Shown: positions 8,445 to 27,600 of the stretch, piece by piece | How the letters are laid out: the number at the start of each line of letters is the position of its first letter | Position numbering within the stretch: the first letter of the stretch is position 1 | NCBI RefSeq assembly: GCF_000517265.1 | Contig: NZ_AYSJ01000004.1 | Location: 62,001-126,000, forward strand | Direction: 5' to 3' | Length of the DNA: 64,000 bases | From: Photorhabdus khanii NC19 | Lineage (GTDB): Bacteria; Pseudomonadota; Gammaproteobacteria; Enterobacterales; Enterobacteriaceae | The notes under the pieces: generated by a model | What the model was told of the DNA's origin: nothing | The model's database searches: none | Seen by the model: only the letters and a program-made list of their open reading frames with translations | Made by a program: the position numbers and the translations under genes

Positions 8445-10190
8445 TCAAGCTAACCGCCAGTTTTGCGCAGATTGCTGTAATGTCCAAAGATCGTGGTAAA
8501 TCCCTCGATTTGCCAATAATTGCTGGTGCTGTCCTTGCTCTGCAATTTCACCATTATTCATCACCACAATTTTGTCTGCATATTCAATGGATGACAATTT
8601 ATGTGCAATAACCAACACGGTTTTATTGGCTATCAATGACTGCATCGCTAATTGGATGTCTCTTTCATTTTCCGGATCAAGCGAAGCCGTTGCTTCATCC
8701 AAAATAATCAGAGGCGCATTTTTGAGTAATGCCCTTGCGATAGAAAGCCGTTGCAATTCTCCGCCAGAAAGGTGTATCCCATCGGCACCGATTTTCGTAT
8801 TCAACCCATCAGGCAATTTATTCAGTAAACTATCCAATCTTGCCAAACAACAGACTCGCAATAATTCTTCATCACTGGCATCAGGACAGGCAATTCGCAG
8901 GTTATTACCAATCGTATCATTTAGCATGTAATGACTCTGGAATACCACACTGATATATTGCTGCCAATATTCCACCTCCATCGAAGCAATATCGACTTTC
9001 TGGTTGTAGCCGCCTACCCAAATACGTCCTTCAGAAAGTTGCCAAAAACGGGCTATTAGTGCAGCCAGCGTTGATTTTCCTGAGCCAGATGCCCCAACCA
9101 AAGCGGTCACTTTATTCGCTTCAATAGTTAGATTTATTCCTCGAAAAATTTCTGGTTTATCGGGATAAGCAAAATACACATTATCTAATTCAAGCGTCAT
9201 ATTATTGAGCTGCGGCCGGGTATTTCCCTGCGATAATTCAGGCAATTCAAATACTTTTTTAACCCGTTCTGTTGCCAGACTAAAATAATTCAACTCAGCC
9301 AGAAACATTGACATATTCAATAATGGCCGGAAAAAACGTACCGCCGCAATAAGAAATACCAGTACCTCCGCTAATGACAAGGTGTGCCCCAACCACCCCC
9401 AAGTCAGTGCGATCAATAATACGATAAATCCGCATTCCACCAACAAATTAAAACTGTATATCGGCCAGACGCCCGCTTTTTCAGCCGTTAGCGATTGCTG
9501 ATAAGTCGTCGTAAGTACATTATTCAAACGGCCAAAAGCCTGACCAAGCATCCGATAAGATTTCAACACTTTCAGGCCATCAATATACTCCATCAAAGCA
9601 TCATTAAGTTTGAATAGTAATTGCTGCATCCGACTTTGCCAGCGGCGCGCATATTGTCGCATCAGTAAATAAGCACACACCGCCAAAGGTAAAGTTGAAA
9701 GCATAGCCAGTGCCATACGCCAATCTTTTAATAATAATCCGATAGAAAAAAAACAGAGTACGGAAGCCGTTGCAATTATTGGTGCATACAAGTGCGTGAA
9801 GATATGTTCGATCATATCGATATCTTTCAGCAATGTATTATTAACGCCACTCATATCCGTCCGCTGAAAAAACCCCATCGGCATACGGCGTAAATGTTCT
9901 CCCAGATTTTTACGTAATGTACGCCCGGCATCGAAACCAATCTGTGCAATATTGAAATAAAGTGTACGAGCCAGTAATACCCGAACCAACATCAGAGCCG
10001 CACAACCGCCTACCAGTTTAAACTGATACATCATATCGGGCATATCAGAGAGCATGTCGAGAATGATGTAGTAAAGAAATGCGTAAGGCGCTGATGCCAG
10101 AAAAGCATCCAATATGGAGAGGGCCACCATACCTGAAAGCCCTTTCAGTGGTTTTCCAACCAGACGGGAAAGATTAAACGCCTTAAACAT
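8445..10190 (-). CDS. ABC transporter, fused membrane-ATPase half-transporter (YbtQ-like)
   Basis: A six-segment membrane domain (residues about 15-310) is fused to an ATPase with Walker A GASGSGKST, signature LSGGELQRLSIARAL and Walker B LIILDEATASLD. YbtP and YbtQ form the inner-membrane pair that takes up ferric yersiniabactin, and this gene with its neighbour has the same order. The start is placed at ATG 10190: it has AGGAGG upstream and overlaps the stop of the previous gene by 8 bases (ATGTTTAA). The frame is open further upstream to 10319, but that part lies inside the neighbour. At 581 residues the length fits. Direction of transport, ferric siderophore import or export, cannot be told from sequence. 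Confidence 0.85.
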   Translation of the reverse strand: MFKAFNLSRLVGKPLKGLSGMVALSILDAFLASAPYAFLYYIILDMLSDMPDMMYQFKLVGGCAALMLVRVLLARTLYFNIAQIGFDAGRTLRKNLGEHLRRMPMGFFQRTDMSGVNNTLLKDIDMIEHIFTHLYAPIIATASVLCFFSIGLLLKDWRMALAMLSTLPLAVCAYLLMRQYARRWQSRMQQLLFKLNDALMEYIDGLKVLKSYRMLGQAFGRLNNVLTTTYQQSLTAEKAGVWPIYSFNLLVECGFIVLLIALTWGWLGHTLSLAEVLVFLIAAVRFFRPLLNMSMFLAELNYFSLATERVKKVFELPELSQGNTRPQLNNMTLELDNVYFAYPDKPEIFRGINLTIEANKVTALVGASGSGKSTLAALIARFWQLSEGRIWVGGYNQKVDIASMEVEYWQQYISVVFQSHYMLNDTIGNNLRIACPDASDEELLRVCCLARLDSLLNKLPDGLNTKIGADGIHLSGGELQRLSIARALLKNAPLIILDEATASLDPENERDIQLAMQSLIANKTVLVIAHKLSSIEYADKIVVMNNGEIAEQGQHQQLLANRGIYHDLWTLQQSAQNWRLA

Positions 10191-11955
10191 GTGAAACCTC
10201 CTGGTTACGCATAGCCACATGCCAGCTTTTTGCCGCCTGATGAGCATCCCACATATTTTGATAAAGTCGGCACTCCTGCAAAAGTTGCTGATGCGTTCCT
10301 TCCGCCACTTTACCTCCATTATCCATCACAATGATTTTATTAACATTGACCAAAGTATTCAGCCGATGAGCAATCACCAGCACCGTGCGCCCTTTCATCA
10401 AATGGGACAGTGCCTGCTGGATTTTCACTTCATTTTTCGCATCCGCATAAGCGGTGGCTTCATCCAAAATTAAAACCGGAGAATCTTTTGCTATCGCTCT
10501 GGCAATAGAGATCCGTTGAGCCTGCCCGCCACTGAGCGAGCCTTGCTGAACCACGGTTTGATATCCTTGCGGTAATTCACGAACAAATTCATCAACGCAA
10601 GCCGCTTTAGCCGCAGCAATAATCTGCGATTCCGTAATATCCTGATTCCCCATCCTGATGTTATTCATAATGGTGTCTTCAAAGATAAATACATCCTGAA
10701 AGACAAAACTAACCAGCGACATTAATTGATCCAAAGGCATCGCGGTAATATCGCTTCCCCCAATCAAAATACAGCCTTGCTGATACTCATATAACCGGGG
10801 AATAAGTTGAGCCGCGGTTGTTTTCCCGGCCCCAGAAGGGCCGACAAACGCGGTAATTTCCCCTTGCCGCGCGGTGAAAGAGAGAGCATCTACCGTAGGA
10901 ATAACCGCATTATTATGGCTGAATGTGACATGTTCAAAACAGATGTCACTACCATCAATTGGCTGTGGAGCACCGCCCTCCCGTTGCCGGGGCTGCTCAG
11001 AAAAATCACGGATATTTTCCACACCTTTTAGCATTTGGCTGAACATACCCGCAAATTGCAGCAGGTTGTAGAGTGGCTCCATCAAGCCAATTCCCAACAG
11101 CATGAAGATAAATAATGTCGCCAGCGCCACATCCCCTTGGGCATACAGCCAGATACCAACGGGCATAATACATAACAATCCCAAATCCAACGCCAGCTTA
11201 AACAATGCCGCAGGCGTTCGGGTATCGACAAGCCATCCTGTGACTAATCGATGATGTTGTTCCACGGCATTGGCATACCGCTGATGGGAGTCGACTGTCA
11301 TATTGAAAGCTTTGACCAGTGGCATACTTTTCACAAAATCCACCACGCTGGTATGCAAATCTGCTACAACCTGATGATAAGCTCTGATACGCGAATCAAA
11401 CCCCTTGAAAATCCAGCACTGCATGGCAATGGCTACCGGCAAAGGGATCAACGCCAATAACGCCAACCTCCAGTCAAAGAAAAACAGCAATGTGGCCGCT
11501 GCCAGCGGTGAGACAATAGCAGCAGCAATATCCGGTAAGTGGTGAGCAATGAATGTTTCGATTCTACCAATATCGTCTGAGATGATTTTCTTCATTGTTG
11601 CAGAGGTATGACGATTAGATGTCCCCAACGGTAAATCACCCACTCGTGCAATCACTTTACGGCGTAATTCAAACAGAAGCTGGAAAGCCGCTTTATGCGA
11701 TAACAAACCGGAAAATAGTTGCAATATGATCTTACCCGCCAACGCCATGACTGCCAGACCGACCAACCACCATACCTGTGATGCAGCCGCATCCGGCTGA
11801 TGCAGAAAAGTATCTATCAGGCGATAGATCAACACATAAGGCACCAACGCCAACAAAGAGTAGATAACGGCTAAGGTCATGGAAGCGATCACGCTTTTCT
11901 TTTGAGTCCCGATCAGTTTCATCAACCAAGAAAAAGCGCTGTCATCTGATTTCAT
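10183..11955 (-). CDS. ABC transporter, fused membrane-ATPase half-transporter (YbtP-like)
   Basis: This 590-residue protein has a six-segment membrane domain (about 20-310) and an ATPase with Walker A GPSGAGKTT, signature LSGGQAQRISIARAI and Walker B LILDEATAYAD. It probably pairs with the following half-transporter at the inner membrane for ferric siderophore handling, like YbtP/YbtQ. Its ATG overlaps the stop of the MFS gene by four bases (ATGA), and its own stop overlaps the next ATG, so translation is likely coupled. The Walker B aspartate is followed by an ATA-Y-AD variant of the usual ATSALD. It is otherwise intact. Confidence 0.85.
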   Translation of the reverse strand: MKSDDSAFSWLMKLIGTQKKSVIASMTLAVIYSLLALVPYVLIYRLIDTFLHQPDAAASQVWWLVGLAVMALAGKIILQLFSGLLSHKAAFQLLFELRRKVIARVGDLPLGTSNRHTSATMKKIISDDIGRIETFIAHHLPDIAAAIVSPLAAATLLFFFDWRLALLALIPLPVAIAMQCWIFKGFDSRIRAYHQVVADLHTSVVDFVKSMPLVKAFNMTVDSHQRYANAVEQHHRLVTGWLVDTRTPAALFKLALDLGLLCIMPVGIWLYAQGDVALATLFIFMLLGIGLMEPLYNLLQFAGMFSQMLKGVENIRDFSEQPRQREGGAPQPIDGSDICFEHVTFSHNNAVIPTVDALSFTARQGEITAFVGPSGAGKTTAAQLIPRLYEYQQGCILIGGSDITAMPLDQLMSLVSFVFQDVFIFEDTIMNNIRMGNQDITESQIIAAAKAACVDEFVRELPQGYQTVVQQGSLSGGQAQRISIARAIAKDSPVLILDEATAYADAKNEVKIQQALSHLMKGRTVLVIAHRLNTLVNVNKIIVMDNGGKVAEGTHQQLLQECRLYQNMWDAHQAAKSWHVAMRNQEVSHV

Positions 11956-13223
11956 TGTGGTACCTCAACTCGCTGAGGTTGAACCGACGGGCGGTTAATG
12001 ATCGACGAAACCAGACGGAAACAAACTGCCACAATAACAATTGTGGTCACACTTCCTACCACCGCCGCATAGAAAGCATGGGTGAATCCCCAATAGTGTG
12101 CCAACGTTCCGGCAATGACCATTGCCGCACTACTACCAAGCACTTCACAACATTGCAGCAAGGTAAAATTGGTTCCTGGCTGAATAACATCCTGTTTGCT
12201 ATCACCTTCACTCCAGCACATGAAACAAGAGAAGAAAGAGACGCAGCTCAGATTGAAAAAGAAACCTTCCAACATAAAGAAGATAAAGACCATAGTGGGA
12301 TCTGTTGATGAGACAGTGAGTGAAATCGCCAGCCCTAACCAACATAACGCACTGGCAATCAGCCCACTTAATGCCAAAGTCGGGCTGGAAAACCAGCGAT
12401 GAAGAAAACCCGCCGCCAACGCGCCAGTGATATAACTGATAATTAACACACTGCCGGAAATCAGAGCAATAAATTCCAGATTAACGCCCATATCTACGAG
12501 CAGAGGTGATATCAACCCAGCACCAAGTGTGCTAGCGAACTTAAACAACAATGCCATCAAAATAACCGGCAAACTTCCCTGACGGCGGAATATTTTCCAG
12601 ACGGAAGCACTACCCGGTTTAACAGGAAGCTGCTGATCGATATTGAATTTGTCCTTATTAAGCATAAATGGAATATGGCAAACAATCTGAACCAGTAAAA
12701 AGAACAGCACCATGTTGTGCCAACCCACAGAGCTGAAAACATAAAGGCTGAGAATACCACCAACCAGCATTCCCAAACTAAACCCGGCAACCTGACCGAC
12801 ATTCACTTTGACATGACGACTGCCGGCAAAAGTGCGCACTGCCAGAGCATCAACCGCCACATCCTGGCTGGCATAAAGAAGATTAATGAATGTGAGTATG
12901 ATCAGCAAACCGATGACATCAGTTTGTGGGCTGAAAAACCACAGAGAAGCGACAGCAAGCAATGAAAGTATTTTAAATAGTTGAATCCAGGCTAATCCGG
13001 CAGAAAGTTTGCCAAATCCCCACGGTTTATGGTTTTCAATGAAAGAAGCCCAGATAAATTTGAATGCCCAAGGTAACATGCATAAACCAATAAGACCGAT
13101 AAACTGCATATCAGCCCCTTGCTGCCGTAAAATCCCCGGCAAAGCAAAAATTGCCAACCCCAGAGGAGCACCTTGCGCGCAATAAAGGCCAAATAAACCA
13201 ACAAGGTTATAATTATATTTCAT
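11952..13223 (-). CDS. MFS transporter (YbtX-like)
   Basis: This is a hydrophobic protein of 423 residues with about 12 membrane segments, starting MKYNYNLVGLFGLYCAQGAP. The family is the major facilitator superfamily, AmpG/YbtX type. In yersiniabactin loci YbtX sits beside the ABC pair; export of siderophore or related zinc handling has been proposed there. The start is put at ATG 13223 (AGGAA six to ten bases upstream) rather than the longer frame from 13337, which would add a hydrophobic extension lying inside the thioesterase gene. A 34-base gap separates it from the thioesterase gene, the only gap in this part of the operon. Confidence 0.8.
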   Translation of the reverse strand: MKYNYNLVGLFGLYCAQGAPLGLAIFALPGILRQQGADMQFIGLIGLCMLPWAFKFIWASFIENHKPWGFGKLSAGLAWIQLFKILSLLAVASLWFFSPQTDVIGLLIILTFINLLYASQDVAVDALAVRTFAGSRHVKVNVGQVAGFSLGMLVGGILSLYVFSSVGWHNMVLFFLLVQIVCHIPFMLNKDKFNIDQQLPVKPGSASVWKIFRRQGSLPVILMALLFKFASTLGAGLISPLLVDMGVNLEFIALISGSVLIISYITGALAAGFLHRWFSSPTLALSGLIASALCWLGLAISLTVSSTDPTMVFIFFMLEGFFFNLSCVSFFSCFMCWSEGDSKQDVIQPGTNFTLLQCCEVLGSSAAMVIAGTLAHYWGFTHAFYAAVVGSVTTIVIVAVCFRLVSSIINRPSVQPQRVEVPQ

Positions 13224-13257
13224 GATATTTCCTAAATTTATTGATTGCGCAATGATA

Positions 13258-14001
13258 CTATGAAGCAGCAATATTACTATTGATATAGTCAAATAAAACT
13301 GAAGATTGATCATTGAGGTAAAAATGCCCGCCATCAAATACTTTCAGTTCAAATTTATCGTTAGTTATCCACTGCCACTGCGCCATCTCTTCCGGAGAAA
13401 CTTCCGTATCGCGTTCCCCAGCGCAAGCAAATACCGGGCAATCAAGTTGTTGTTGGCAACGGCGTTGATATGTTTCAATAGCCTGAAAATCCGCACGGAA
13501 AATGGGCATTAACAATGCCTTTAATTCAGGCATGGTCTGATAATCAATCGCAGAACCACCCAGAGAAGTAATTTTGTTCAGCAGTTGCTGCTCATCCCGA
13601 CGGTGATAATCATTACCACTATTTTTGTGTGGCGGCAGACGGGCAGAAACAAATAATGCGCGAATTTTTCTACCCTGCTGTTGCATACGCAATGCCACCT
13701 CAAACGCCAGCGCAGCGCCCATGCTGTGCCCGAAAAAATAAGTCGGACGTAAAGGCAAAATATTCAAGACCTCAACCAAGCTGTCTGCTAACTGATGAAT
13801 ACAGGTTTGCAACGGCTCGCTAATCCGCGAGCCATGTCCAGGTAATTGAACGGCATAAACCGCAGTATCTTTTGAAATTCCGTCACGCCAGGGGATAAAG
13901 TATTCTGCTCTGCCCCCGGCATAATGAAAACAGATCAGTTGGCTACCGGTTCCCGGTTTTATCAGTCGCACTGCTCTATCAAGCGATACGTTATCAAACA
14001 T
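13258..14001 (-). CDS. Type II thioesterase (YbtT-like)
   Basis: An alpha/beta hydrolase of 247 residues. It shows LICFHYAGGRAEYFIPW near the N-terminus, the nucleophile elbow FGHSMGAALAFEVAL with serine, and a C-terminal His in FDGGHFYLNDQ. Such enzymes remove wrongly loaded or stalled groups from carrier proteins. The start at 14001 is preferred over upstream ATG codons because AGGGGG lies nine bases before it; the ATG overlaps the stop of the reductase gene by 8 bases. Its normal Ser nucleophile contrasts with the Cys in the terminal thioesterase of the NRPS. Confidence 0.88.
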   Translation of the reverse strand: MFDNVSLDRAVRLIKPGTGSQLICFHYAGGRAEYFIPWRDGISKDTAVYAVQLPGHGSRISEPLQTCIHQLADSLVEVLNILPLRPTYFFGHSMGAALAFEVALRMQQQGRKIRALFVSARLPPHKNSGNDYHRRDEQQLLNKITSLGGSAIDYQTMPELKALLMPIFRADFQAIETYQRRCQQQLDCPVFACAGERDTEVSPEEMAQWQWITNDKFELKVFDGGHFYLNDQSSVLFDYINSNIAAS

Positions 14002-15121
14002 AGTGAACATCCCCCTGTTGTTGCAGAAATTCGCTGATCTCCGGTTGAGGTGGAACAGGATCAGGCACATGCAAACTTTCTGGGTTACCAACCTTACTCA
14101 TTAAGGTTTTCCAAACAGAGGCCATTGTCAGTAAATATTGCGCCATGCGGGGATCAGGCCGTTCAATCTGTATGGCAAATTGCCGCAAAGCATGACGAAT
14201 AGCCTCGGGCCAGTGCTGATTCGTGATCTGTTCCAGACTTGGACAACAGTCATACAACGAAACAGAAGTTGGCGGTTTAAAGTAATGGGCAGCCTGTTGT
14301 GGTAATAGAGGCTCCCTTACCCCACTGGTTGTACGCTGACGTGGTATATGGAAGCGTGAATTCCACAACACCGGACCATGTGTATTCACCAACAGCAAAT
14401 TACCACTGGGCAGACCGACGCAAATACGTTGCATAATGTGGAAATGGTTATCAGGATCGCCGGGATCAAGCTGATTCTGCAAATTCAGGATTAATGGGAT
14501 CCCCATAATAACCCCTTGAATAGTGGTATAAGGCGGATAACTGGTGGCCTGAGTCAGCAATTGTTTATCCCAGTGATGTGCGTCGCCAAAAGCAAAAGGG
14601 GTGAATTTTCCTAATGCACGTCCCAGAATATCCAGTAAACCGCAAATCACTTGAACGCCACAGGTAGCTTCAATAAATAAAGGTTGCTGATGCTGCATAG
14701 CCTGTTGCAAATAATCAGTAAATTGCCGTACTGCCGGAACATTCGGATAGTGCGTATTGACGGAGTAACAGCAATTATTCTGGCGAGCCAGTTTCAAACA
14801 TTCCGCCACATCACGCTGATAAACCGGATGTTCCTGTAAAACATGAATTCCTCTGCTCAACAATTGTTTTGTCAGTTCACTGCCCGCGCCACCGACAATG
14901 GCAGAACGTACCACGACACAGGCAATATCAATATCATCCGGCAACTGGGAAACGTGTTCATACAAAGGTACCTGATATTCAGCCGCCAGCCGCTGCGAGC
15001 GCTCACTGCCACGGGCAATAATGCCCGCCAATTCAAAACCAGGAAAATGGGTTTTAAACGCTGACAAATAAACCTGACCGAACAACGTACCACAGACGAC
15101 GACACGTAATGGACGACTCAT
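13994..15121 (-). CDS. Thiazolinyl imine reductase (YbtU/PchG-like)
   Basis: This Gfo/Idh-type NAD(P)H enzyme reduces a carrier-bound thiazoline to a thiazolidine in yersiniabactin and pyochelin synthesis. The N-terminal fold begins RPLRVVVCGTLFGQVYLSAF, and GIHVLQEHPVYQRDVAECL is typical of the family. The length, 375 residues, matches YbtU (about 366). Its ATG overlaps the preceding stop by four bases. It implies that one of the three heterocycles in the product is a thiazolidine. Confidence 0.88.
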   Translation of the reverse strand: MSRPLRVVVCGTLFGQVYLSAFKTHFPGFELAGIIARGSERSQRLAAEYQVPLYEHVSQLPDDIDIACVVVRSAIVGGAGSELTKQLLSRGIHVLQEHPVYQRDVAECLKLARQNNCCYSVNTHYPNVPAVRQFTDYLQQAMQHQQPLFIEATCGVQVICGLLDILGRALGKFTPFAFGDAHHWDKQLLTQATSYPPYTTIQGVIMGIPLILNLQNQLDPGDPDNHFHIMQRICVGLPSGNLLLVNTHGPVLWNSRFHIPRQRTTSGVREPLLPQQAAHYFKPPTSVSLYDCCPSLEQITNQHWPEAIRHALRQFAIQIERPDPRMAQYLLTMASVWKTLMSKVGNPESLHVPDPVPPQPEISEFLQQQGDVHYV

Positions 15122-16191
15122 AGTTCCCCCTCAACATAATCTGCACTTTGACGCGGTTTTATTTCTATCTGCCAGTATTCAAAGGCCCCCATGTGCTCAA
15201 GCCCTGACAATAACTGCTCTGCATCAGCTAAATCAGACAGCCATTTCAACCCTGATTGTGGTGTTTTGAGCATCATATCCGCCGCCAATGCAGCAACGAT
15301 CCCGGTAAAACGGTAACTATCAGTAAAACGCCCTCTGGCAATGAGAGTCACGGGTTGCCCCACCAATACACCTTCTGCTTCCAGCAAAATATGTTGCTGT
15401 TGACCATAATGATGCGTTAGTTCTTCACTCTGGCTGATCAGCTGTTTAATTCCCTGCTCACCATTAAATTGATCCGTCAGCAATAGCTGACGATCTGCAA
15501 GTAAATTAAATGCAGCGAAATCAACCAGATTGAGTTGCCGGGCAACTCTTTCCAACTCAAAACTGAGATATGGCAGGGCATCAAATGCCCTGTTAGCAGT
15601 TTCAGGCTGAACATTTTTTTCTATGGCTGCCCGTTGTAACGCTCCTCCAGATAAGATATGACCTGCTTTACCATTCTGCTCATTCAAGCTATCAATAAAG
15701 TCAATGGCGGAAGTCACCGTAAAAGGTTCTATTCCGCCAAGATATGACCGCACTTTACCCATTGTTTTCAGCCGGTTCGCGGCTAAAAAAGGTAAGATCG
15801 AGGCAAATCCCGGCACATATCCCGCGCCCAAGACACAAGCGGATTTCTGTAATAAAGGGGCTAATTTTTCATCTGCGGCTAATTGCTGCCAGACAACAGG
15901 CTCTCCTGCAACATCCAAATAGTGCGTTGCCGAAGCCAATGCTGCTCTGGCAATTCTGTCCTGAATTTGCGAAGCAGGGCCTGCGGCATTAATGATCAAA
16001 GAAAACGGCTGACAAAGTTCAGCCAGTGCTTTTTCATCAAATAAATCTATCTGATGATAATCAGCTAATTCAGCACAGGGGCGACGCCCTGCACCTGACA
16101 CCTGATAACCCAATTGATTCAATGCAGCAACAACAGAGCTTCCAACTGCTCCCGTAGCGCCTATTACCAGAATTTTCCTATCCCGATTCAT
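15118..16191 (-). CDS. Saccharopine-dehydrogenase-like NAD(P)-dependent oxidoreductase
   Basis: The N-terminus KILVIGATGAVGSSVVAAL is a Rossmann dinucleotide-binding motif, followed by INAAGPASQIQDRIARAAL and THYLDVAGEP, which belong to the saccharopine dehydrogenase NAD-binding family. Length is 357 residues. The gene starts directly after the stop of the NRPS gene (no spacer) and its own stop overlaps the next ATG, so it is embedded in the operon. Yersiniabactin and pyochelin loci lack such a gene as far as I recall. It may act on a carrier-bound intermediate or on a released aldehyde or thioacid; the substrate is unknown. Confidence 0.75.
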   Translation of the reverse strand: MNRDRKILVIGATGAVGSSVVAALNQLGYQVSGAGRRPCAELADYHQIDLFDEKALAELCQPFSLIINAAGPASQIQDRIARAALASATHYLDVAGEPVVWQQLAADEKLAPLLQKSACVLGAGYVPGFASILPFLAANRLKTMGKVRSYLGGIEPFTVTSAIDFIDSLNEQNGKAGHILSGGALQRAAIEKNVQPETANRAFDALPYLSFELERVARQLNLVDFAAFNLLADRQLLLTDQFNGEQGIKQLISQSEELTHHYGQQQHILLEAEGVLVGQPVTLIARGRFTDSYRFTGIVAALAADMMLKTPQSGLKWLSDLADAEQLLSGLEHMGAFEYWQIEIKPRQSADYVEGEL

Positions 16192-19100
16192 TTAGTTCAC
16201 CTGTGCTTTGCACTGTTCAAGATGGTTTACCAGTGGCATCACATTATCTGATTTAATACAGTCAAAATGGTCGCCATTCAGTGAAAGATAATTTACGTTT
16301 CCAAGACAATATTGCTGCCAAAATTCTTTCATGTCCTGCTGGAGCGCAGGCAGCAAATAAGTATCACTATTTTGGCAGGCAAACGTCAGATCACCGGCAA
16401 AATAATCTGGCTGATAACGGCAAACACCCCGAATGCTGTGACGGAAAACAGAACACATCCGGATCCACTCTTTCTCAGCAATCTCATTTTTACGGATAGC
16501 GCTAACCAATTGCTGTAAACGCTGATCTTCCGGGATATCCACCACCGCCATATAAGCATCGGCAAAGGCATCCATTCCGCGGGCACGGGCATATTCAGCG
16601 ACGGAATGACGATCAATGACCTCTGGCTTTTCCGCCAGCAAAGCTTCATAAACGGTTTCCAGTTGTTCCTGAGGCAACGTCCATGGACATTCCACTGACA
16701 ATCCCCAGATAATCGCCATATCTATCATCAACGGATCATCAATCAGGTAAGGGATCTGATAACTGCTGGCAATCGTTACTGAAGCAACAGGTGTCTGATT
16801 TTCCATCGCCTGACGCGCCATTTCAAAGGCCAATAACCCACCCATGCAGTAACCAAATAAATGGCAATGACCAGGCAAAGATTGAATATCACGCAGATAA
16901 TGTCGTGCCAATTGAGAGATTAATTGCTCAGACGGAATTTGCAGGAAAGCGTCTGTATCGACCACACTCAGCGCATAAACCGGGCCAGAAAGTTTTTCAG
17001 TCAAAGGCAGGCAAGGCAATACCGTACCACTGCCTTCATGCAGAATAACGACCGGATCACCATGACCTTCCTTCAATAACGTCAAACAAGAATGGTTATC
17101 TGATGATCTCTTACCCTGCTCTGACTGCGTACGCAAAAATGCCGCCAGTGCACGAACGGTTGGCTGCTGTAGCACCTGACGCAAGCTGCCTTCCCACGGA
17201 ACGTTACCTTCCCCAAGCTCCTGACGAATCCGGCTTACCCACTGCGTTATTAATAATGAGTCACCACCGCTGGCGAAAAAATCATCATCAAGACCAATAT
17301 TATTATGCCCAAGCAGTTCCCGGCACAGCGTCAGTAAGGTCTGTTCCAGTTCGTCACTGCTGTTGCTTTCTGCTACTGGCTCATTCCCGCTATGCTCCGG
17401 TAAATCCGGCATACCTTTACGATCAACTTTGCCATTAGCTGTCACAGGCAAACGATCAAGTACGGTAAGGCGAGCAGGCACCATATAAGCAGGCAGTTGT
17501 TGTTTTAATGACGCCAACAATTCTGTGCTGTTGCATGGTCTACGGTTGAGATTAAATTGCGCCAAAATAAAACTCTGCCCCAGTTGATAAAGCGCATCTT
17601 CTGCTGGCGGATAAGCCCATAACGTCTCCGCACCCACATCGTTCATGGCATTAAGCCAGTTTTTCTGCGGCATAAACGGCGAATCCAGTTCCAGCCGTTC
17701 ATCGGCAAAATCACTCAGGCCATGCTTAAATTCCATCGAAGTCATCAACTGGTAATTATCCCGTGTTGCTTCAATCACCAGCAGCCATCCATCCGGTGCC
17801 AGTAACTGGCGCAGATGTTCTAATCCCTGACGGGCAATAACCGCATTGTGCAGAACATTAGAAGAGACAATCATGTCAAACTGCCCACAATCCAACCCTT
17901 GTTCTACCGGTGTACGATTGAAATCAAACAACCGGTAACGAACAAAATCAAACTGCTGATAACGTAATCTGGCCTCATTCAGGAAGAAGGGTGAAATATC
18001 GGTAAAGGTATATTCGACGTTCCAGTCTGCCAGTTTCGGGATCAACACGTTACTGGTGCCGCCCACACCAGCCCCAATTTCCAATACCCGCAGGCAACGC
18101 CCTTCTTCATGGTTAATCTGAGCCGCTTTTTGTTCAGCCGCAGCCAGCAACAAGCGATTCATCATTTTACTGATCAGATTGTTTTGGTAAGTTTTGATCG
18201 CCACATCCAGCTTGCCATCAGGGAACAGCAAATTTAGCGGATCTTCTTTGCCCTGCAACAATTCCGGCAGACACTGGCTACTGCGTTCCAGATAGGTAAG
18301 CAAGCCTTGGTCATCATCCAATGCTGACATCAAGTCATAACATTGTTGCCAACACTGCTTGATTTCATACTCTGAAACATCAGCATTGAGCTGGTAATAC
18401 TCTCCTTGTTGCTGAATTAACTGATGCTGAACCAACGCTCTCAACCACCGGCGTGTTAATTGCCGGTTTTCTGCCGCAATACTGCCGTTTTCCATCACAG
18501 AAGCGAGGGTAGCGGGCTTTCCTGCCTGTAAAGCGCCGACATCCACCAACGCACCAACCATATGCAACAGGGCCACACGATCAAGGAACCAAACCAGCTT
18601 TTCTACCTTTTGCTTATCTATCGTTGCTTCAATATCGCTGGCAACTGAGCGTACTTTTTGTAATGCCATCTCATAGCGCTGATACAGCTTTTCTGCCCGT
18701 TCCAAAGAATTTTCTGTCGCCGCTTCAACAAAAGCGTGTAATCCTTGATTATGCTTATCCCCTTTTACGACAACCGCAGCCTGAGCCACACTATTATGTC
18801 GCTCCAACACGGCTTCTATCTCACCTGTTTCCACCCGATAACCACGAATTTTTACCTGATTATCACAGCGCCCAAGAAACTCAATCACGCCATTGACGGT
18901 ATAACGCCCCCGGTCTCCCGTGCGATACCAGCGTTGTCCCTGGCTGTCAGTGATAAAGTGATGGCGAGTTTTTTCTTCATCCTGCCAATAGCCCTGAGCA
19001 ACACCACGGCCGCCAATCCAAAGTTCTCCCGCAACCCAATCAGGGCAAGGTTCTCCACGGAGATCCAAAATACGGAACTGCTGATTAGCCAATGGCGTGC

Positions 19101-21651
19101 CATAAGGAATGCTGTTGTGATAGGTTTTTGCCGGTTCTATCGGCCAGATATTTGACCAAATAGCAGCTTCCGTCGCCCCACCCAGGCTGAATTGATAAGC
19201 ATTTGGCGCATGTTGATAAATAGCGGTTGGCAAATTAAGCGGGATCCAGTCACCAGACATCATCACACAGCGCAAGCGACCAATGGATTCCTTCCCTCCT
19301 TCAGACAGGTAACGGGTCAGCATCGTCATTTGCGCCGGGACAGAGTTCCACAACGTAACCTGATGTTTATCAATTAGCCGCGCCCATTGTGCAGGGTTTT
19401 GTAAATCCTGTTCCTGCGGCAATATCAACGCGCCACCTGCGCTAAGTACACCAAAAATATCATAGACAGAAAGGTCAAAACTCAGCCTCGCCAGTGCCAG
19501 CATGCGATCAGTCGATGTGACATTCATACGGCGATTGATATCGCTGATGGTATTCAGCGCCGCATCATGGCTTATCATCACGCCTTTCGGTTGCCCGGTA
19601 CTGCCGGAGGTATAGATAATATAAGCCAGATTATGCGGGTCATTTTGCTTCACTGACACAGCGGAAGTAATTGCCAGTTCTGACACATTCTCGGTGCTGG
19701 CAGCATTAAACCCCTGTTCCCGTAACTGTTGAGCCAAAACCTCATTATCTGTCAATACTGCACTAACCTGTGCATCAGTAAGAATTTGCAATATCCGTGG
19801 CAACGGCTGTGAAATATCAAGTGGCAGATAAGCACCACCAGCGATTAAAATCGCCAGGGTTGTAATAACCTGCTCCGCACTTTTTTCCATCAATATCGCG
19901 CTATGTCCACCTTGGGGTAAAAACGCGGCCAGTTTTGTTGCACGTGTTACCATTTGTTGATAGGTCATCGGCCCACATGCATCAATCAGCGCCAATGCAT
20001 CAGGCGTTTTACCGGCCTGTTCCAAAACACCCTGATGTAATAGCGCCGATTTAATCATTTCCTCAGTCGCATTAACCTGTTGCCGTGTTTTTTGCTGGTA
20101 TTCCGGCAGATTAATGACGAGTACCTGATCCCACACATCAACCTGTTCCAATACCTGATATATCGCGCCAGTAAAGCAACTGAACATATCGCGGATCAAA
20201 TCCACCGGGAATACACCCTCCATGATATCCCAGTTGATCAATAACCCTCCATTACGGGCCATCACCTGGCAATCAATCCATACCTGTGGGGTCTGGCTGA
20301 TACCATAGCCAATCTCAATATCCATCGGTAATTGGCTGATAATATCCTGCGCCTGCTCTTTACCCTCGCCAACTAATGCACTGGTAAATACTATCGGCAT
20401 TCTCGCAGCTTCTGCTCCCCTCTGTCGTGCCAGCTCACGCATCACCTCAATACCACTGAATGCGTTATGCTCCAAATCCTGCCACAGTTGCGCCTGTAGA
20501 TTTTTCACCCGCTCCAGCAATGAGAGGGGCTGACTGATATCCGCCTGCAATAGGCTAACGCTGGTAAAATCCCCAACCATCCGGTGAATATCTTCATGAA
20601 GATCACGGCGGTTCATTACTGTCAGATTGAGACAAAAAGATTTCGTTTCTGACCAGCGGACCAGTGTTTCACTAAAGAGCGCCAAAAGCAGTGCAGAAGG
20701 AGAGACGCCTTGTAAACGACAATGTTGCTGCAATTGCTCCCACTGTTTAGCAGTGAGTTGCAAATCGTAACGGCTGAAACGGGGAACAACGCCACTTTGT
20801 ACCGGAAGGTGAGGTAATTGTGGGCTTGCAGGCAACTCAGGCAGACGTTGCAACCAATATTCACGCGCGCCGGCATAGCTGCGCTGACGGTGGCGGTGTT
20901 GCTCAAACTCCATCACATCACGGAAACTGGCCTGTAATGGCGCAAATTCTGTCTGCGGCTGTTGATAACCTTTTAATAGTTCTGCCAGCAAAATTTGTAC
21001 ACTGAGAAAATCCGCAATCAGCAAATCAATACTGAAATGAAGGCAAGATTTCCCTGCTGCCTGGCTGACTTTCAGATCAAACAGCGGCCAACAATCTGTC
21101 TGATAAACCCGGTGAGACAGGGTTTGCCGAAGTTCTTCCGGCGAAGAAGAGTGGCAATCAATGGTGAAATGATGCACTTCCGGCAAAATCTGTTGCTGCC
21201 CCTGAACAGTAAATACCGCCCGCAACATATCATGGCGTTGGATCAGTTGATTCCATACCTGCTCAAGACGTTTAACATCCCAATGTTCAGTCAGAATTTC
21301 AAAATAACCATGACAACCCACACCACCATAATCGAACATTGAATGACGCCCGACAAAATAAGCTGACTGCACATCACTTAGAGCGAAAGGCAAATGCTTC
21401 TGTGCCGGGTTTACCACAAAATTCTGTGGTTCCTGCCACTCCTGTATTAACGCAACAATTTGTGGTTTCAAATTCTTCAACTGAGCAATAACGTGATGAC
21501 TCATCACTCCCTCAGGCGCACGAAACTTCAACGCCTCACCTTCCAGCCAGAATTTAGCCTGTTGTTGTTCAAGTTGCAGTAAAAGCTGAACCGCTTGTTG
21601 TGAAGCTGATAGCTGTACTGTTTTTTTCTGTATAGTTTCCTGGCTATTCAT
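16192..21651 (-). CDS. NRPS: docking-Cy-A(MT)-PCP-TE
   Basis: This 1819-residue terminal module resembles the NRPS part of HMWP1/PchF. Order: TubC-like docking domain (13-75); heterocyclisation domain with DLLIAD (209-214) in place of the condensation HHxxxD; adenylation domain (TSGSTGQPKG at 681) whose pocket residues FDLSVYDIFG, WNSVP, SGDW and ATEAAIWSN match Cys-activating domains; embedded C-methyltransferase with intact LEIGAGVGG (1190-1198); A10 VTANGKVDRK (1403-1412); PCP with GGDSL, Ser1465; thioesterase (1520-1819) with GYCMGG, Cys1602 at the nucleophile position, and His1795. It should add, cyclise and methylate a third cysteine and release the product. Its ATG overlaps the previous stop by four bases. 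Confidence 0.92.
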   Translation of the reverse strand: MNSQETIQKKTVQLSASQQAVQLLLQLEQQQAKFWLEGEALKFRAPEGVMSHHVIAQLKNLKPQIVALIQEWQEPQNFVVNPAQKHLPFALSDVQSAYFVGRHSMFDYGGVGCHGYFEILTEHWDVKRLEQVWNQLIQRHDMLRAVFTVQGQQQILPEVHHFTIDCHSSSPEELRQTLSHRVYQTDCWPLFDLKVSQAAGKSCLHFSIDLLIADFLSVQILLAELLKGYQQPQTEFAPLQASFRDVMEFEQHRHRQRSYAGAREYWLQRLPELPASPQLPHLPVQSGVVPRFSRYDLQLTAKQWEQLQQHCRLQGVSPSALLLALFSETLVRWSETKSFCLNLTVMNRRDLHEDIHRMVGDFTSVSLLQADISQPLSLLERVKNLQAQLWQDLEHNAFSGIEVMRELARQRGAEAARMPIVFTSALVGEGKEQAQDIISQLPMDIEIGYGISQTPQVWIDCQVMARNGGLLINWDIMEGVFPVDLIRDMFSCFTGAIYQVLEQVDVWDQVLVINLPEYQQKTRQQVNATEEMIKSALLHQGVLEQAGKTPDALALIDACGPMTYQQMVTRATKLAAFLPQGGHSAILMEKSAEQVITTLAILIAGGAYLPLDISQPLPRILQILTDAQVSAVLTDNEVLAQQLREQGFNAASTENVSELAITSAVSVKQNDPHNLAYIIYTSGSTGQPKGVMISHDAALNTISDINRRMNVTSTDRMLALARLSFDLSVYDIFGVLSAGGALILPQEQDLQNPAQWARLIDKHQVTLWNSVPAQMTMLTRYLSEGGKESIGRLRCVMMSGDWIPLNLPTAIYQHAPNAYQFSLGGATEAAIWSNIWPIEPAKTYHNSIPYGTPLANQQFRILDLRGEPCPDWVAGELWIGGRGVAQGYWQDEEKTRHHFITDSQGQRWYRTGDRGRYTVNGVIEFLGRCDNQVKIRGYRVETGEIEAVLERHNSVAQAAVVVKGDKHNQGLHAFVEAATENSLERAEKLYQRYEMALQKVRSVASDIEATIDKQKVEKLVWFLDRVALLHMVGALVDVGALQAGKPATLASVMENGSIAAENRQLTRRWLRALVQHQLIQQQGEYYQLNADVSEYEIKQCWQQCYDLMSALDDDQGLLTYLERSSQCLPELLQGKEDPLNLLFPDGKLDVAIKTYQNNLISKMMNRLLLAAAEQKAAQINHEEGRCLRVLEIGAGVGGTSNVLIPKLADWNVEYTFTDISPFFLNEARLRYQQFDFVRYRLFDFNRTPVEQGLDCGQFDMIVSSNVLHNAVIARQGLEHLRQLLAPDGWLLVIEATRDNYQLMTSMEFKHGLSDFADERLELDSPFMPQKNWLNAMNDVGAETLWAYPPAEDALYQLGQSFILAQFNLNRRPCNSTELLASLKQQLPAYMVPARLTVLDRLPVTANGKVDRKGMPDLPEHSGNEPVAESNSSDELEQTLLTLCRELLGHNNIGLDDDFFASGGDSLLITQWVSRIRQELGEGNVPWEGSLRQVLQQPTVRALAAFLRTQSEQGKRSSDNHSCLTLLKEGHGDPVVILHEGSGTVLPCLPLTEKLSGPVYALSVVDTDAFLQIPSEQLISQLARHYLRDIQSLPGHCHLFGYCMGGLLAFEMARQAMENQTPVASVTIASSYQIPYLIDDPLMIDMAIIWGLSVECPWTLPQEQLETVYEALLAEKPEVIDRHSVAEYARARGMDAFADAYMAVVDIPEDQRLQQLVSAIRKNEIAEKEWIRMCSVFRHSIRGVCRYQPDYFAGDLTFACQNSDTYLLPALQQDMKEFWQQYCLGNVNYLSLNGDHFDCIKSDNVMPLVNHLEQCKAQVN

Positions 21652-24600
21652 AGAGAACCTTCCTCAAAAATCATTTCCGCTTCCTCTGCGGGGGCGGATT
21701 GTAGTTGTTGCGCCATACGTGCAATGGTTTGCAGGTTGAAAACCTGCCAGAGTGGCAAATCAATGTTATGACACCGCCTCAGTTCAGAAGTGAAACGGGT
21801 TGCAATAAAGGAGTCGCCGCCGAGGGCAAAGAAATTGTCATGAACGCTGAGTTGCGTCAGATTAAGCAATGGCAACAGCACATCTGCCAGTTGTTTTTCC
21901 AATGGGCTTTCCGGCAACGTGTCCATAGCCTGACTGACAACATTCCGTGGTTGTTGCTCAATTATTTTGCGATCCAGCTTGCCGTTGTCTGTCAACGGCC
22001 AGCAAGATAGCCAACCAAACTCAACCGGAACCGTATATTCTGGTAATTGTGCTGACAGTTGTTGCCGCAACAGCGACCAATCCGGCTCTTGCGATGCCAA
22101 GACGCAAGCTGAGAGGGATGGACGCTTGCCACGTTGATTAACAAATACCAACGCGTCTTCAATACCGTCACAACCTTTCAAAGCCTGTACGATCTCACCC
22201 AGCTCAATACGGTAGCCGGAAATTTTAACCTGCTGATCACGCCGTCCCAGGAATTCCAGTACGCCTGTTGGGTGATAACGCCCCATATCGCCAGTGCGAT
22301 ACCAACGCTCCCCTTGCCAGGAAATAAACTGATTGGCAGTACGCTCATCATCACCGAAGTAACCCAGCGCCACACCATGACCACCAATCCACAGCTCACC
22401 GGCAACCCAATCAGGGCAATCCTCTTTTAGTTCACTGACTACACGGAACTGCTGGTTCGGCAACGGTAATCCATAAGGAATAGATTTCCATTCAGGATCA
22501 AGCTCGTCCACTAACCAGTAATTCGACCAAATGGCCGCTTCGGTCGCGCCCCCCATAGAAACCAGTTGTACCTGTGGTATCCAGCGCTTCAAACGCTCAG
22601 GCAATGCAAGGTTAATCCAGTCACCGGAGAGCATGACCAGACGCAAACTGGTAAGCGCATCGGTCTGTTCATCGTTTTCACACAGTAACAGGGCCATTTC
22701 CAGTAGGGCTGGTACGCTGTTCCATAACGTTATCTGGTGCTGTTTTATCAGAGTCAACCAATGTGTAGCATCCTTAGAATAGGTTTCAGGTACCGTGACC
22801 AAAGTCCCGCCCGCTGACAGCACACCAAAAATATCCCACACAGAAAGGTCGAAATGCAGCGCAGACAGCGCCAGAACTTTGTCCTGTTTATCAACACAAT
22901 GCTGCCGATTGATCGCTTCAATAGTATTAACCGCAGCACCGTGACTTATCGCTACGCCTTTAGGTACGCCTGTGCTACCAGAAGTGAAAATAATGTAAGC
23001 CAGATCCTGAGCTTGTGAATGCCAGGGTTGAATCGCCGTTGTTGTCAGCGGTGACTGGTTAATATCAACAATTGCGACCGATCCCGTCCATTGCAAGTGG
23101 CTATCTGCCACAACACGAATCAACCCCGCCTGCTGGGCAACCTGTTCCCGGCGCAGCACAGGCCATTCGACAGAGATGGGAACATAAGCCGCTCCCAACC
23201 ACTGAACAGCCAGTACCGCGACGATTTGTTGATAACCCCTTGGTAACGCAACACCAACACAATCACCTGCACAAACGCCTTGTTCAACCAAAACCTGAGC
23301 CAATCGTTGCACATGTTGTTCTAACTGTTGATAACTGACCTGCTGCCCACCATCAATAATCGCTGTTCGATCCGCAAACTGTGTCATCGCTTGCCCAACA
23401 CGTTGATGCATTGGTGTAAAACGCAGTTCCTGATGCGTATCATTAACCCGTTGACGACACTGCTGCTGTTGTATCGGCAGTGCTACATTCACCTGGGTAT
23501 GCCAGTCCGGAATCACACTTAACTGTGTCAGCAAATCACAATATGCACTGAACATCGCATCGATCATGCCTTGTGGGAACAGACCATCAACCACATCCCA
23601 GTTGAAATGTAATTCTCCATCCTGCTCATAGACTTGATGATCGATCCAAACCTGAGGAGTCTGAGAAATTCCCCAGATAGCCGGCGGGAACGGTTGTGCA
23701 CTCTCTTGATAAGGCATGACTTCTGCCCCTAACGCACTGGTAAACACGACGGGCATAGCCAAATCGGTAACTTGCCGTTGTTTATTCAATTCACGGATAA
23801 CCCATACCGCCGAAACATCAGTATGAGCCAGATCTTGCCAAAGCTGTTGCTGTAATCGCTGTGCTCTATTGAGCCAGTTTTCATCGGCTAAATGGTGACA
23901 TTCCAGTAACAGAAGCGAAGTGAAATCCCCCAGAATATGGTTGATATCAGGATGTAATGGCTGACGATCAAACAACGTCACATTGATACTCAATGAAGCC
24001 GATTCTGACCATTTCGCCAGCACCTGTGCATAACAAGTCAGCAACAAACAAGAAGGCGTCACTTGATAATGCCGGGCTTTTTCTGTCAAAGTTTGCCACT
24101 GCTGCCGTGGCAAAACAGATTGCCAACGTTTAAACCGGGGAGTCCCCAATGACTGCGGATCACAAATCAGTGGCAGCTTTGGCGCTTCAGGTAATTCTGC
24201 CAGCCGCTCCTGCCAGTAATTTGCCGATTTACGGCTCTTCTCTTCATCAGAAATCACCGTGGTGAGATAATCTCGGAAACCAATCCCAACGGATGGCAAT
24301 CCCCCTTCCGGTTGCTGATAAAGCTGCTCAAGTTCGGTGAAGAAAATGCGCATACTCAAGCCGTCAAGGATCAAATTATCCAACCCGATATACAGGCGAT
24401 TGCGCCCATTATCTGACTGAATCAGCGTCACATGGAACAACGGCCATTGTGTCGGATCAAGTACCCGGTGGGATAAGCTTTCCCGCAATTTACTGGTTTC
24501 TTCTGACCATTGCTGCTCAGAACAGTGGATCACGTCTAGCGCAGGTTTTGGCTGCTGTGGCAACACCCGTTGCATTCCTTGCTCATCGAATACAATTCTC

Positions 24601-27600
24601 AATGCATCATGACGGGCAATCAATGCGGATAAAGCCTGTTCTAACCGCGTTGCATCAAAAGGCTGGCCTTCGTATTCGTTATAATAATGAGTGGCAACCC
24701 CACCGAGACGGAAACCAGCCTGACGCCCCATCAGATAGGCGCGTTGTACATCTGTAGGCGGGAATGGCTGATAACGTTCACTTTCCTGATGTTGCAGTTG
24801 CATCACTTTTGTTGTTGGCAGTTCAGCAAAAGTCATCAATCGAGCAAAGTCACGCAATACCGGGGAGGAGAACACCTGAGCCAGTGAGACATCTACAGCC
24901 CCTTCTGATTCCAACGCCACAACAATCCGGGTGGCATGTAAACTATCACCACCAAGCAGGAAGAAATTGCTGTCAGCCATTGGCTCTGTACCCAATACCT
25001 GTTGCCAGACTTTAGCCACCAGATATTCGGCTTTTCCTGACAATTCGACGCCCTGTGCAGATTGCAGAATTTCCTGCTCTGCCCCGTCTACAGCTAATTG
25101 TTCAAGTGCTTTGCGATCTATTTTTCCATTAGCACTCAATGGGAGTTTATCTAAAACATGCAAATACTGCGGCAACATATAAGCTGGAAGATAATTTGTC
25201 AGATGCTGCGTCAATTCGTGGCGATTAACCATAACGTTGCTACTACGGTTTTTGCACATCAACAGTACGGAGTTTTCCCCCATTACAGTGACAGACTGCA
25301 CGGGTAAATCACTTTGCAACAACTGCTGTTGCCAACGTTTCTTATCCAGTAACGGATCTCGCTGGCCTTGTCGCAGATCAGTAAAACCATTTTCATCTTG
25401 CAGCAGTAACACCGTTAATTGTGCCAGCGGGCTGAGATATTGGCTTTCAAACACCAATACGCCACTGCCGGAAGATGCCAATACTTGCAGATCAGAGATT
25501 CCCCGACGGATATCGGCATAACGATGCAGTGCATTATTACTGATGACCAGATCGGCACTATAATCTACCGCTTCCTGCACTGTGCAAACCTGGCTCTGAT
25601 GCGGATAACCTGACAGACGATATTTCGCCAATTCACGCAATGAACCGGCCTGCTCAACTAAGCAATATTCAATCTCCAAATCAGATAATAGACCGAGTAA
25701 CTTGCCTGCAAACAGACCACTGCGGCCATTCAGCTCTGCAACTCTGACAGGCCGCTGCAATATCGTGGATAACCGGCGGATTTGATCCGCAATAAGGGTA
25801 ATGAACACTTCAGTTTCCGGTGAACCAACAACCAGAACTTCCGGTGACAATACAGGATCGTCGATAAGCATTAGTGGGTTCTGTTTCCCCTGAATCACCT
25901 GAGCAATCCAGTCACAACACCCATCAAGCGCCCGATAAATTCCGCCCATTCGTGATGCCAGAACCGGCTTGTTATCTGGTTGCCACCCTTGATTCAATTG
26001 CCAGCCTTTTTCACTTTCAGATAACCATCCCTGATGAGTCAACCACTCCAACCACTGAATAAACAGTGGTTGATAACGGGGTATCACCCCTGCCTGTTGA
26101 TAAAGTATTTCTGCACTCTGTGGCTGAGTAAGTGTCAGTTGCAAAGAATCAATCAATATCTTTTGCAACAGCGATAACGCGATACGCTGTTCATCATCCT
26201 GACTGCTTTCCGCCTGAATAAATGATGGCATTTCAGGTAATACATTATCGGCTAATGTTGAAGAATCACCCGCTGTCACCTGACCTTCAACAAACAATCT
26301 CAGATGTTTCTGTGGTTCAGATAAACACAATGCAACGGCTTTGCTGATTGCAGGGTGACGTAAAACCACCGTTTCAATTTCACCCAGTTCAATCCTGTAA
26401 CCATTCAGTTTAATCTGGCTATCTTTGCGGCCAAGAAACTCAAGGCATCCCCCCTGCCAAAAGCGCCCATAATCTCCCGTCCGGTAATAACGCTGCCCTT
26501 GATACAGAACAAACTGAGTGTCTGTTTTTTCCCGGTCGCCGTAATAGCCCAGCGCTACGCCTTTCCCGCCAATCCACAACTCTCCGGCGACCCAATCAGG
26601 GCAATCCCGTTGTTGTGAATCCATGACTCGGTAATGCTGATTAGAGAGCGGATAACCGTAAGGAATTGAGCGCCATTCTGACGGGATAACATCGATATCA
26701 ATCGCGTTAGACCAAATTGCTGCTTCCGTTGCTCCCCCCATTGCCGTTAATTGAGCCTGACTTCCAACTTCACGCAAACGGGGAAGCAGATCCAAGCCAA
26801 CCCAGTCACCGGATAACAATACCTGTTGCAATGAATCAGGCAAACCACGGGGATCACTTTCAGCCGCCACCAGCAACATATCAAACAGCGCCGGGACACT
26901 GTTCCAGACTGTCACCTGTTCCTGATGCAGCTGTTCCAGCCATTGCTTTGCTTCCCGCTCATGGCCCACCTCAGGCATAACCAAGGAACCCCCTGACGCA
27001 AGAGGGCCAAAAATGTCATACACCGACAAATCAAAATTCAGTGCCGACAGGGCATATACCCGTGTTTTTTCCCGCTGACCATAACGGCGATTAATATCAT
27101 CAATTGTATTAGCGGCGGCCTGATGAGATACCACAACACCTTTAGGTGTACCGGTAGAGCCAGAAGTGAAGATGATATAAGCAGAAAGTTCCGGTTCCCC
27201 ATAAACCACCTGCGATAATGGCAGTTGTGAGTCACCGGTCTGCTCAATATTCAGAACCGCATCAAACCAACGACTAACCGGCTCCTGATATTCATTGTTT
27301 GTAATAATCAACGAAATATCCGCCTGACTGATGATGGTCTGTAAACGGGCTGATTGCTGCGCGACATCCAACGGAACATATACAGCACCAACACTCAAGC
27401 AAGCCAAAACAGCAACAACTTGCTCTGTACCTTTTGGCAACAATAATGCCAGGTTATCTCCAGCTTTTACTTTTTGCTCTTTCAACCTGTAAGCCAGCTC
27501 CAGTACATCCTGCTCAAGTTCACCATAACTGAGTCGTTGATGAGGCGTGATAACTGCGGGTGAATTTGCCCACAATGCCGCAATCTCATAAAAACGACGA

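Follow-up and report, generated by a model that had tools for sequence, protein, structure and literature searches.

A cysteine-type terminal thioesterase with a saccharopine-dehydrogenase-like partner in a putative acyl-primed metallophore cluster of Photorhabdus khanii

The window, a stretch of 64,000 nucleotides from the genome of Photorhabdus khanii NC19, contains a minus-strand gene cluster at positions 8445-35192 that encodes two assembly-line proteins. The gene of a TonB-dependent receptor-like protein lies upstream of the synthetase genes, which are followed by the gene of a saccharopine-dehydrogenase-like protein (SDH) and then by those of a reductase, a type II thioesterase (TE), an MFS transporter and two ABC transporter halves:

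33111..35192, minus strand: TonB-dependent siderophore receptor-like protein (TIGR01783, 200.9 bits, slightly under the cut-off of 223.5)
21648..32936, minus strand: NRPS/PKS 1 (P0002), FAAL - ACP - KS - ACP - Cy - A - PCP - Cy - A - PCP (Pfam, NCBIfam, active-site motifs)
16192..21651, minus strand: NRPS 2 (P0001), TubC_N docking - Cy - A (Cys-like code) - MT - PCP - TE (Pfam, A-domain motifs)
16195..17094, minus strand: terminal TE domain of NRPS 2, about residues 1520-1819 (Pfam PF00975, AlphaFold2 model, fold matches)
16846..16848, minus strand: Cys1602, codon TGC, in the nucleophile elbow GYCMGG (sequence; conserved in relatives)
16765..16767, minus strand: Ser1629 at position I, the place of the catalytic Asp in Ser-type TEs (alignment of representatives)
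16735..16737, minus strand: Asp1639, conserved acidic residue and candidate replacement acid (alignment of representatives)
16267..16269, minus strand: His1795, presumed catalytic His, in GDHF (invariant in representatives)
15118..16191, minus strand: SDH, saccharopine-dehydrogenase-like NAD(P) enzyme (PF03435, family profile, fold)
13994..15121, minus strand: thiazolinyl imide reductase of the Irp3/YbtU type (TIGR01761, 434.8 bits, cut-off 188.8)
13258..14091, minus strand: type II TE, elbow GHSMGA, true start probably internal (sequence)
11952..13337, minus strand: MFS transporter, nearest to the RhtX/FptX siderophore family (182.8 bits, below the family cut-off of 356.15)
10183..11955, minus strand: ABC transporter half (profile search)
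8445..10319, minus strand: ABC transporter half (profile search)

Judging by their position, the two ABC transporter halves are presumably YbtP/Q-like. The KS of NRPS/PKS 1 retains the motifs DTACSSS, HGTGT and IGHLEA, while Pfam detects no AT domain in the KS module (21648-32936) and no AT gene lies among the ORFs of the cluster, so that malonyl would need to be supplied in trans. The A-domain codes, read by eye as approximately D-L-Y-N-M/L-S-L/M-I in the third and first modules and D-L-W-N-L-S-M-I in the second, suggest activation of cysteine when compared with the codes tabulated in an excerpt of PMC3672683, with the second module being less sure. The Cy domain of NRPS 2 was distinguished from a plain C domain by a DxxxxDxxS-like motif and the type of the cluster. 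Among the nine ORFs of at least 150 aa in 8445-35192, there is no salicylate synthase or stand-alone aryl-AMP ligase and no trans-acting methyltransferase, P450 or VOC protein.

The TE of the cluster was found in four of the 12 genomes of the genus searched, the source genome included. A search with the TE matched only the window's own domain among 394 genomes of the order, and across 398 genomes of the phylum the SDH gave two matches and TIGR01761 three, own matches included in both cases. Counterparts of the FAAL-KS head (1100 aa) with 50-61% identity are present in X. bovienii, X. lircayensis, V. chagasii and H. colorata, where they sit in single ORFs of 3703-3814 aa; the other four of the eight genomes queried returned nothing or weaker partial matches. 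These matches suggest that the head recurs in four genera (Photorhabdus, Xenorhabdus, Vibrio and Halomonas), the absence of an AT having been read in the window cluster. A recD-like gene adjoins the cluster (8445-37682) both in the window and in one further genome (G011). In two others (G004 and G009), the recD-like gene and the cluster lie on different contigs, so the site of the cluster may vary.

The terminal domain of NRPS 2 is a type I thioesterase with an alpha/beta hydrolase fold, as indicated by both the match to PF00975 and the structural model. A preliminary description of the locus had pointed to the elbow GYCMGG with Cys1602, to His1795 in its GDHF context and to the serine kept by the stand-alone TE, all of which we confirm. 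It had also raised the possibility that the TGC codon was a sequencing error. This can be dismissed because the cysteine is conserved in the four further Photorhabdus records that contain the cluster as well as in relatives from Xenorhabdus, Halomonas and Vibrio, partly through a synonymous codon, TGT, which the Halomonas and Vibrio relatives use in place of TGC.

The comparison of homologous TE domains proposed at the same time took the form of a survey of reductase loci, in which genome contigs were scanned with four aligned thiazolinyl imide reductases, that of the window at their head, and with two peptide patterns. It retained 80 of 81 confirmed loci, many of them near-copies. SDH was scored as absent if a two-seed profile gave no match at E 1e-5 in the locus stretch examined (mostly 21 kb). 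The profile was positive in 44 of the 80 loci, and a 45th, L042, has its SDH and TE just beyond its stretch. By alignment, the elbow residue of the 45 SDH-positive loci is Cys in 32, Ser in five (four Nocardia, one Aneurinibacillus), Gly in four and His in four; the other 35 loci comprise 33 with Ser, one with Cys (L028, from Saccharopolyspora spinosa) and one without a call (L039), whose stretch ends at a contig edge before any TE and whose genome yields no SDH match. L028, the sole Cys exception to the pairing, has SDH-like genes outside its 21-kb locus. The Gly loci (L030-L032 and L054; three Micromonosporaceae, one Azospirillum) read GHGLG or GYGLG and the His loci (L043, L046, L049 and L050; Streptomyces) GAHVG, and both keep the histidine of the C-terminal region. 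All 25 SDH-less TEs from Photorhabdus and Xenorhabdus have Ser; three contigs of Xenorhabdus hominickii (L075, L076, L079) carry such loci, whose TE domains are identical.

When 79 TEs (with the window, without L042) were grouped by single linkage at 60% identity, 23 groups resulted: 11 with Cys and SDH, one with Cys without SDH, one with Ser and SDH, two with Gly, one with His, one mixed and SDH-positive, and six with Ser without SDH. In a tree of the 79 sequences, the TEs of SDH loci and L028 are separated from the SDH-less Ser TEs by a branch with 99/96 support, with six changes of residue class in all; the root was placed at the midpoint, and the program warned of long branches meeting at this split. 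Phmmer searches with the window TE gave at least 83 bits for the 32 Cys sequences, 73-99 bits for the SDH-positive Ser sequences and at most 45 bits for the SDH-less Ser sequences. The cysteine is thus not obligatory in the family, because 13 of the 45 SDH-positive loci have Ser, Gly or His instead, and the tree suggests that Cys was probably ancestral in the SDH-positive clade and replaced several times, with the SDH/Cys association amounting to about one ancestral event. A Fisher P for the survey counts, which takes no account of relatedness, was set aside as evidence. The window TE belongs to this clade by its elbow Cys, its position in the tree and the accompanying SDH (PF03435) and Irp3-type reductase.

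To view the active site, 21 hand-picked clade representatives (20 SDH-positive loci and L028) were aligned with 12 SDH-less Ser representatives, with positions I and II of the catalytic Asp named after PMC11298585 (in excerpt). Among the clade representatives, the nucleophile column holds 16 Cys, two Ser, two Gly and one His, whereas the His1795 column is invariant in both sets (21/21 and 12/12). Position I is occupied by Ser in 14, Asp in five and Gly in two of the 21, as compared to Asp in 12/12 of the SDH-less set. The window TE thus combines Cys1602 and His1795 with Ser1629 at position I, and a triad of the Ser/Cys-His-Asp type is unproved for this reason. An Asp is found in its position-II region (NSDTY), but close relatives have a different residue there. 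Asp1639, whose column contains 16 Asp and five Glu, is a possible candidate for the acid that replaces the catalytic Asp. Two more Cys positions were seen near the invariant His, one in CLG (17/21) and one in HFxC (16/21).

The model of the adjacent SDH (pLDDT 91.7) has carboxyspermidine dehydrogenase as its closest fold (E 4.6e-20, TM 0.74), and its fold neighbours comprise carboxyspermidine, lysine and saccharopine dehydrogenases. These enzymes act at C-N bonds. In two Corynebacterium loci (L098, 8849-11023; L099, 8141-11053), a single reading frame covers SDH and the thiazolinyl imide reductase, as though the two were fused; in Paenibacillus popilliae (L048, 9989-12220), it is a methyltransferase domain to which the reductase is fused. 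The SDH may play a role in release, but because of the dehydrogenase neighbours and the one-frame reading with the reductase, a function as second reductase of a ring C=N bond appears at least as likely, and for the same reasons we do not claim it as a proven release partner. By Pfam and position, it would be of the SrbE/MchE/EqbM type.

We estimate a probability of roughly 0.5 that the cluster directs the synthesis of an acyl-primed polythiazoline metallophore whose last step involves a Cys TE of the sorangibactin/coelibactin type and capture by a homocysteine- or methionine-derived unit. The survey pairing of Cys TEs with SDH places the window TE in this type. In this proposal, a fatty acid would be loaded by the FAAL and elongated by the KS, which would receive malonyl in trans; thiazoline rings would be added by three Cys-type modules, and the Irp3-type reductase, perhaps together with the SDH, would reduce ring C=N bonds. 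The chain would then pass from the last PCP to Cys1602 as a thioester, to be captured by the amine of the homocysteine- or methionine-derived unit in the manner suggested for sorangibactin, which would yield an amide with a homocysteine thiolactone, intact or ring-opened, at its end. Such a capture is the most likely fate of the thioester by analogy, representing the sole characterised chemistry of the type. The beta-ketoacyl-thiazoline head would offer O and N donors placed much like those of salicyl-thiazoline. According to excerpts of PMC10127202, the terminal TE of sorangibactin uses a Cys whose exchange for Ala or Ser leaves no product, deletion of SrbE/F/G (SrbE being the SDH) abolishes sorangibactin, and labelled Met is incorporated into the C-terminal homocysteine thiolactone amide; coelibactin shares the Cys TE and the SDH, and the workings of this pair are called open. 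Retention of Cys through a synonymous codon change, its presence in 32 of the 45 SDH-positive loci, the 99/96 clade split, the phmmer scores, the gene series of the Pseudomonas locus L033, the need for the SDH EqbM alongside a TE with Ala for Ser in equibactin, and the formula common to mupirochelin and sorangibactin C support the proposal. Against it stand the 13 deviating SDH-positive loci, the origin of the SDH association in about one ancestral event, L028 with its Cys and no SDH in the locus, Ser1629 in place of the catalytic Asp, the lack in the window cluster of the trans-methyltransferases, the P450 and the VOC protein known from sorangibactin, and the loss of CO2 from mupirochelin, taken as a sign of a free carboxyl group (PMC10080011, in excerpt).

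The last point leads to an ordinary hydrolytic TE, in which the Cys1602 thioester would react with water to give a free carboxylic acid and the cysteine would be a neutral, fixed substitution. Apart from mupirochelin, the Ser elbows of the Nocardia and Aneurinibacillus members fit such an enzyme, as does the early hydrolytic shunt product that an excerpt of PMC10127202 describes after deletion of srbI, the reductase gene. We nevertheless regard it as unlikely, given that the Cys to Ser exchange abolishes sorangibactin production and that Cys is retained across large divergence in most SDH-positive loci. A more radical alternative is that the domain survives as a remnant for binding or editing, while a different enzyme, or a non-covalent attack on the PCP thioester with help from His, accounts for release. 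It would account for the Gly (4) and His (4) elbows among the 45 loci and for the Ala of equibactin (PMC3672683, in excerpt), for the histidine kept in 21/21 representatives and for the Ser or Gly at position I in 16 of them. The conservation of Cys in the window's own lineage and its essential role in sorangibactin make this explanation improbable.

The preliminary description had considered release other than plain hydrolysis, with obafluorin as the parallel. The general expectation stands in that Cys1602 is likely the nucleophile and release, by analogy with sorangibactin, is probably not plain hydrolysis, but the coelibactin and sorangibactin TEs replace obafluorin as the closest relatives. 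Direct formation of a beta-lactone, macrothiolactone or thiocarboxylic acid by Cys1602 draws on the Cys TEs of ObiF and SulM, which serve strained rings (PMC11298585). We consider it improbable as well, as the Gln-Cys-Asn motif of SulTE is absent, close relatives do not conserve the Asp of the position-II region, and the predicted pathway includes neither a beta-hydroxy nor a sulfamate nucleophile. A thio-acid in particular is not favoured because the photoxenobactin TE, which belongs to a thio-acid cluster, has Ser (PxbG S3793; PMC9396620, in excerpt), as do the SDH-less Photorhabdus and Xenorhabdus TEs of the survey.

It is tempting to speculate further that the Cys-TE/SDH clade, spread over Pseudomonadota, Actinomycetota and Bacillota, stands for a general release system by amino-acid capture (homocysteine thiolactone), with a branch in Photorhabdus, Xenorhabdus, Vibrio and Halomonas in which a beta-ketoacyl lipid head took the place of salicylate and the lipid metallophore bears a reactive thiolactone cap, with Gly, His and Ala forms that would act without an acyl-enzyme, and with mupirochelin having been misdrawn. 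This wider reading is a tentative one. Mupirochelin (m/z 509.1345, C22H28N4O4S3, five isomers) has one residue beyond the prediction from its three-residue assembly line, and its free-acid structure was drawn solely on MS/MS evidence (PMC10080011). Its published formula is identical to that of sorangibactin C (PMC10127202), with a calculated [M+H]+ of 509.1345, and homocysteine capture would account for the extra residue without iteration. The fragments 233.0403 (about 4 ppm from C8H13N2O2S2+, 233.0413) and 306.1239 (about 10 ppm from C15H20N3O2S+, 306.1271) are not diagnostic between isomers. The CO2 loss speaks against such a capture. The mch cluster also has a P450, which in sorangibactin makes the oxazole, with two hydrogens fewer.

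The pairing of Cys TEs with SDH in clusters of this kind has already been published (PMC10127202). Among the open-access papers listed in our searches, none describes by title or abstract a FAAL/KS-primed member, the Gly/His series, the shared formula or the window's own cluster. Our results direct attention to a metallophore of insect-associated and marine bacteria that is uncharacterised and probably carries a lipid head. They also warn that free-acid C-termini predicted for such clusters may be wrong. The natural series of Cys, Ser, Gly and His, together with Ala in equibactin, at one position and always with SDH, can test the need for an acyl-enzyme.

Among known systems, the Cys TEs of ObiF, SulM and AB3403 differ from the window TE in several respects. 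The Asp sits at position II in ObiF and SulM and at position I in AB3403 (PMC11298585), whereas the window TE has a conserved Asp at neither; the SulTE motif contrasts with Tyr-Cys-Met, and the substrates differ too. Ring closure of the obafluorin/SulM type is not favoured, given these motifs. ObiF was absent from the 50 fold matches listed for the TE model, which excludes nothing. Yersiniabactin, piscibactin and photoxenobactin resemble the window in their Cy-A modules, Irp3-type reductase and type II TE, and pxb is often encountered in the same genera. Unlike the window cluster, pxb has a Ser TE (survey motif GWSFGG), a salicylate start and a PKS module with AT and KR (PMC9396620), and no SDH was found in the SDH-less loci of this type. 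Photoxenobactin identity was rejected on the salicylate start and the Ser TE, and is also disfavoured by separate, apparently pxb-like Ser-TE loci in the same genus. Equibactin of Streptococcus equi is yersiniabactin-like and shares an SDH (EqbM), which is required, and a terminal TE residue other than Ser (PMC3672683); it differs in that this residue is Ala and in its salicylate start and single A domain.

Mupirochelin shares with the window an SDH, reductase and type II TE, with Pseudomonas loci of this series whose TEs read GYCLGG, and departs from the window in its salicylate start, P450, VOC protein, two methyltransferases and product drawn as a free acid. One such locus, L033 of Pseudomonas simiae (GYCLGG), contains by Pfam an SDH (PF03435), two methyltransferases, a P450, an Irp3-like reductase, a glyoxalase/VOC-like protein and an AMP-ligase, a series that equals the order described for srb and mch in excerpts of PMC10127202 and PMC10080011. 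Sorangibactin, whose form A is given as anthrochelin D in a figure legend of PMC11934131, differs in its trans-methyltransferases, P450 and VOC protein and in starting from salicylate, as opposed to the FAAL and AT-less KS of the window. It shares with the window a Cys TE, a last protein of five domains that include MT and TE (SrbD, as published), a PF03435 SDH, an Irp3-type reductase, Cys-like A domains and transport genes.
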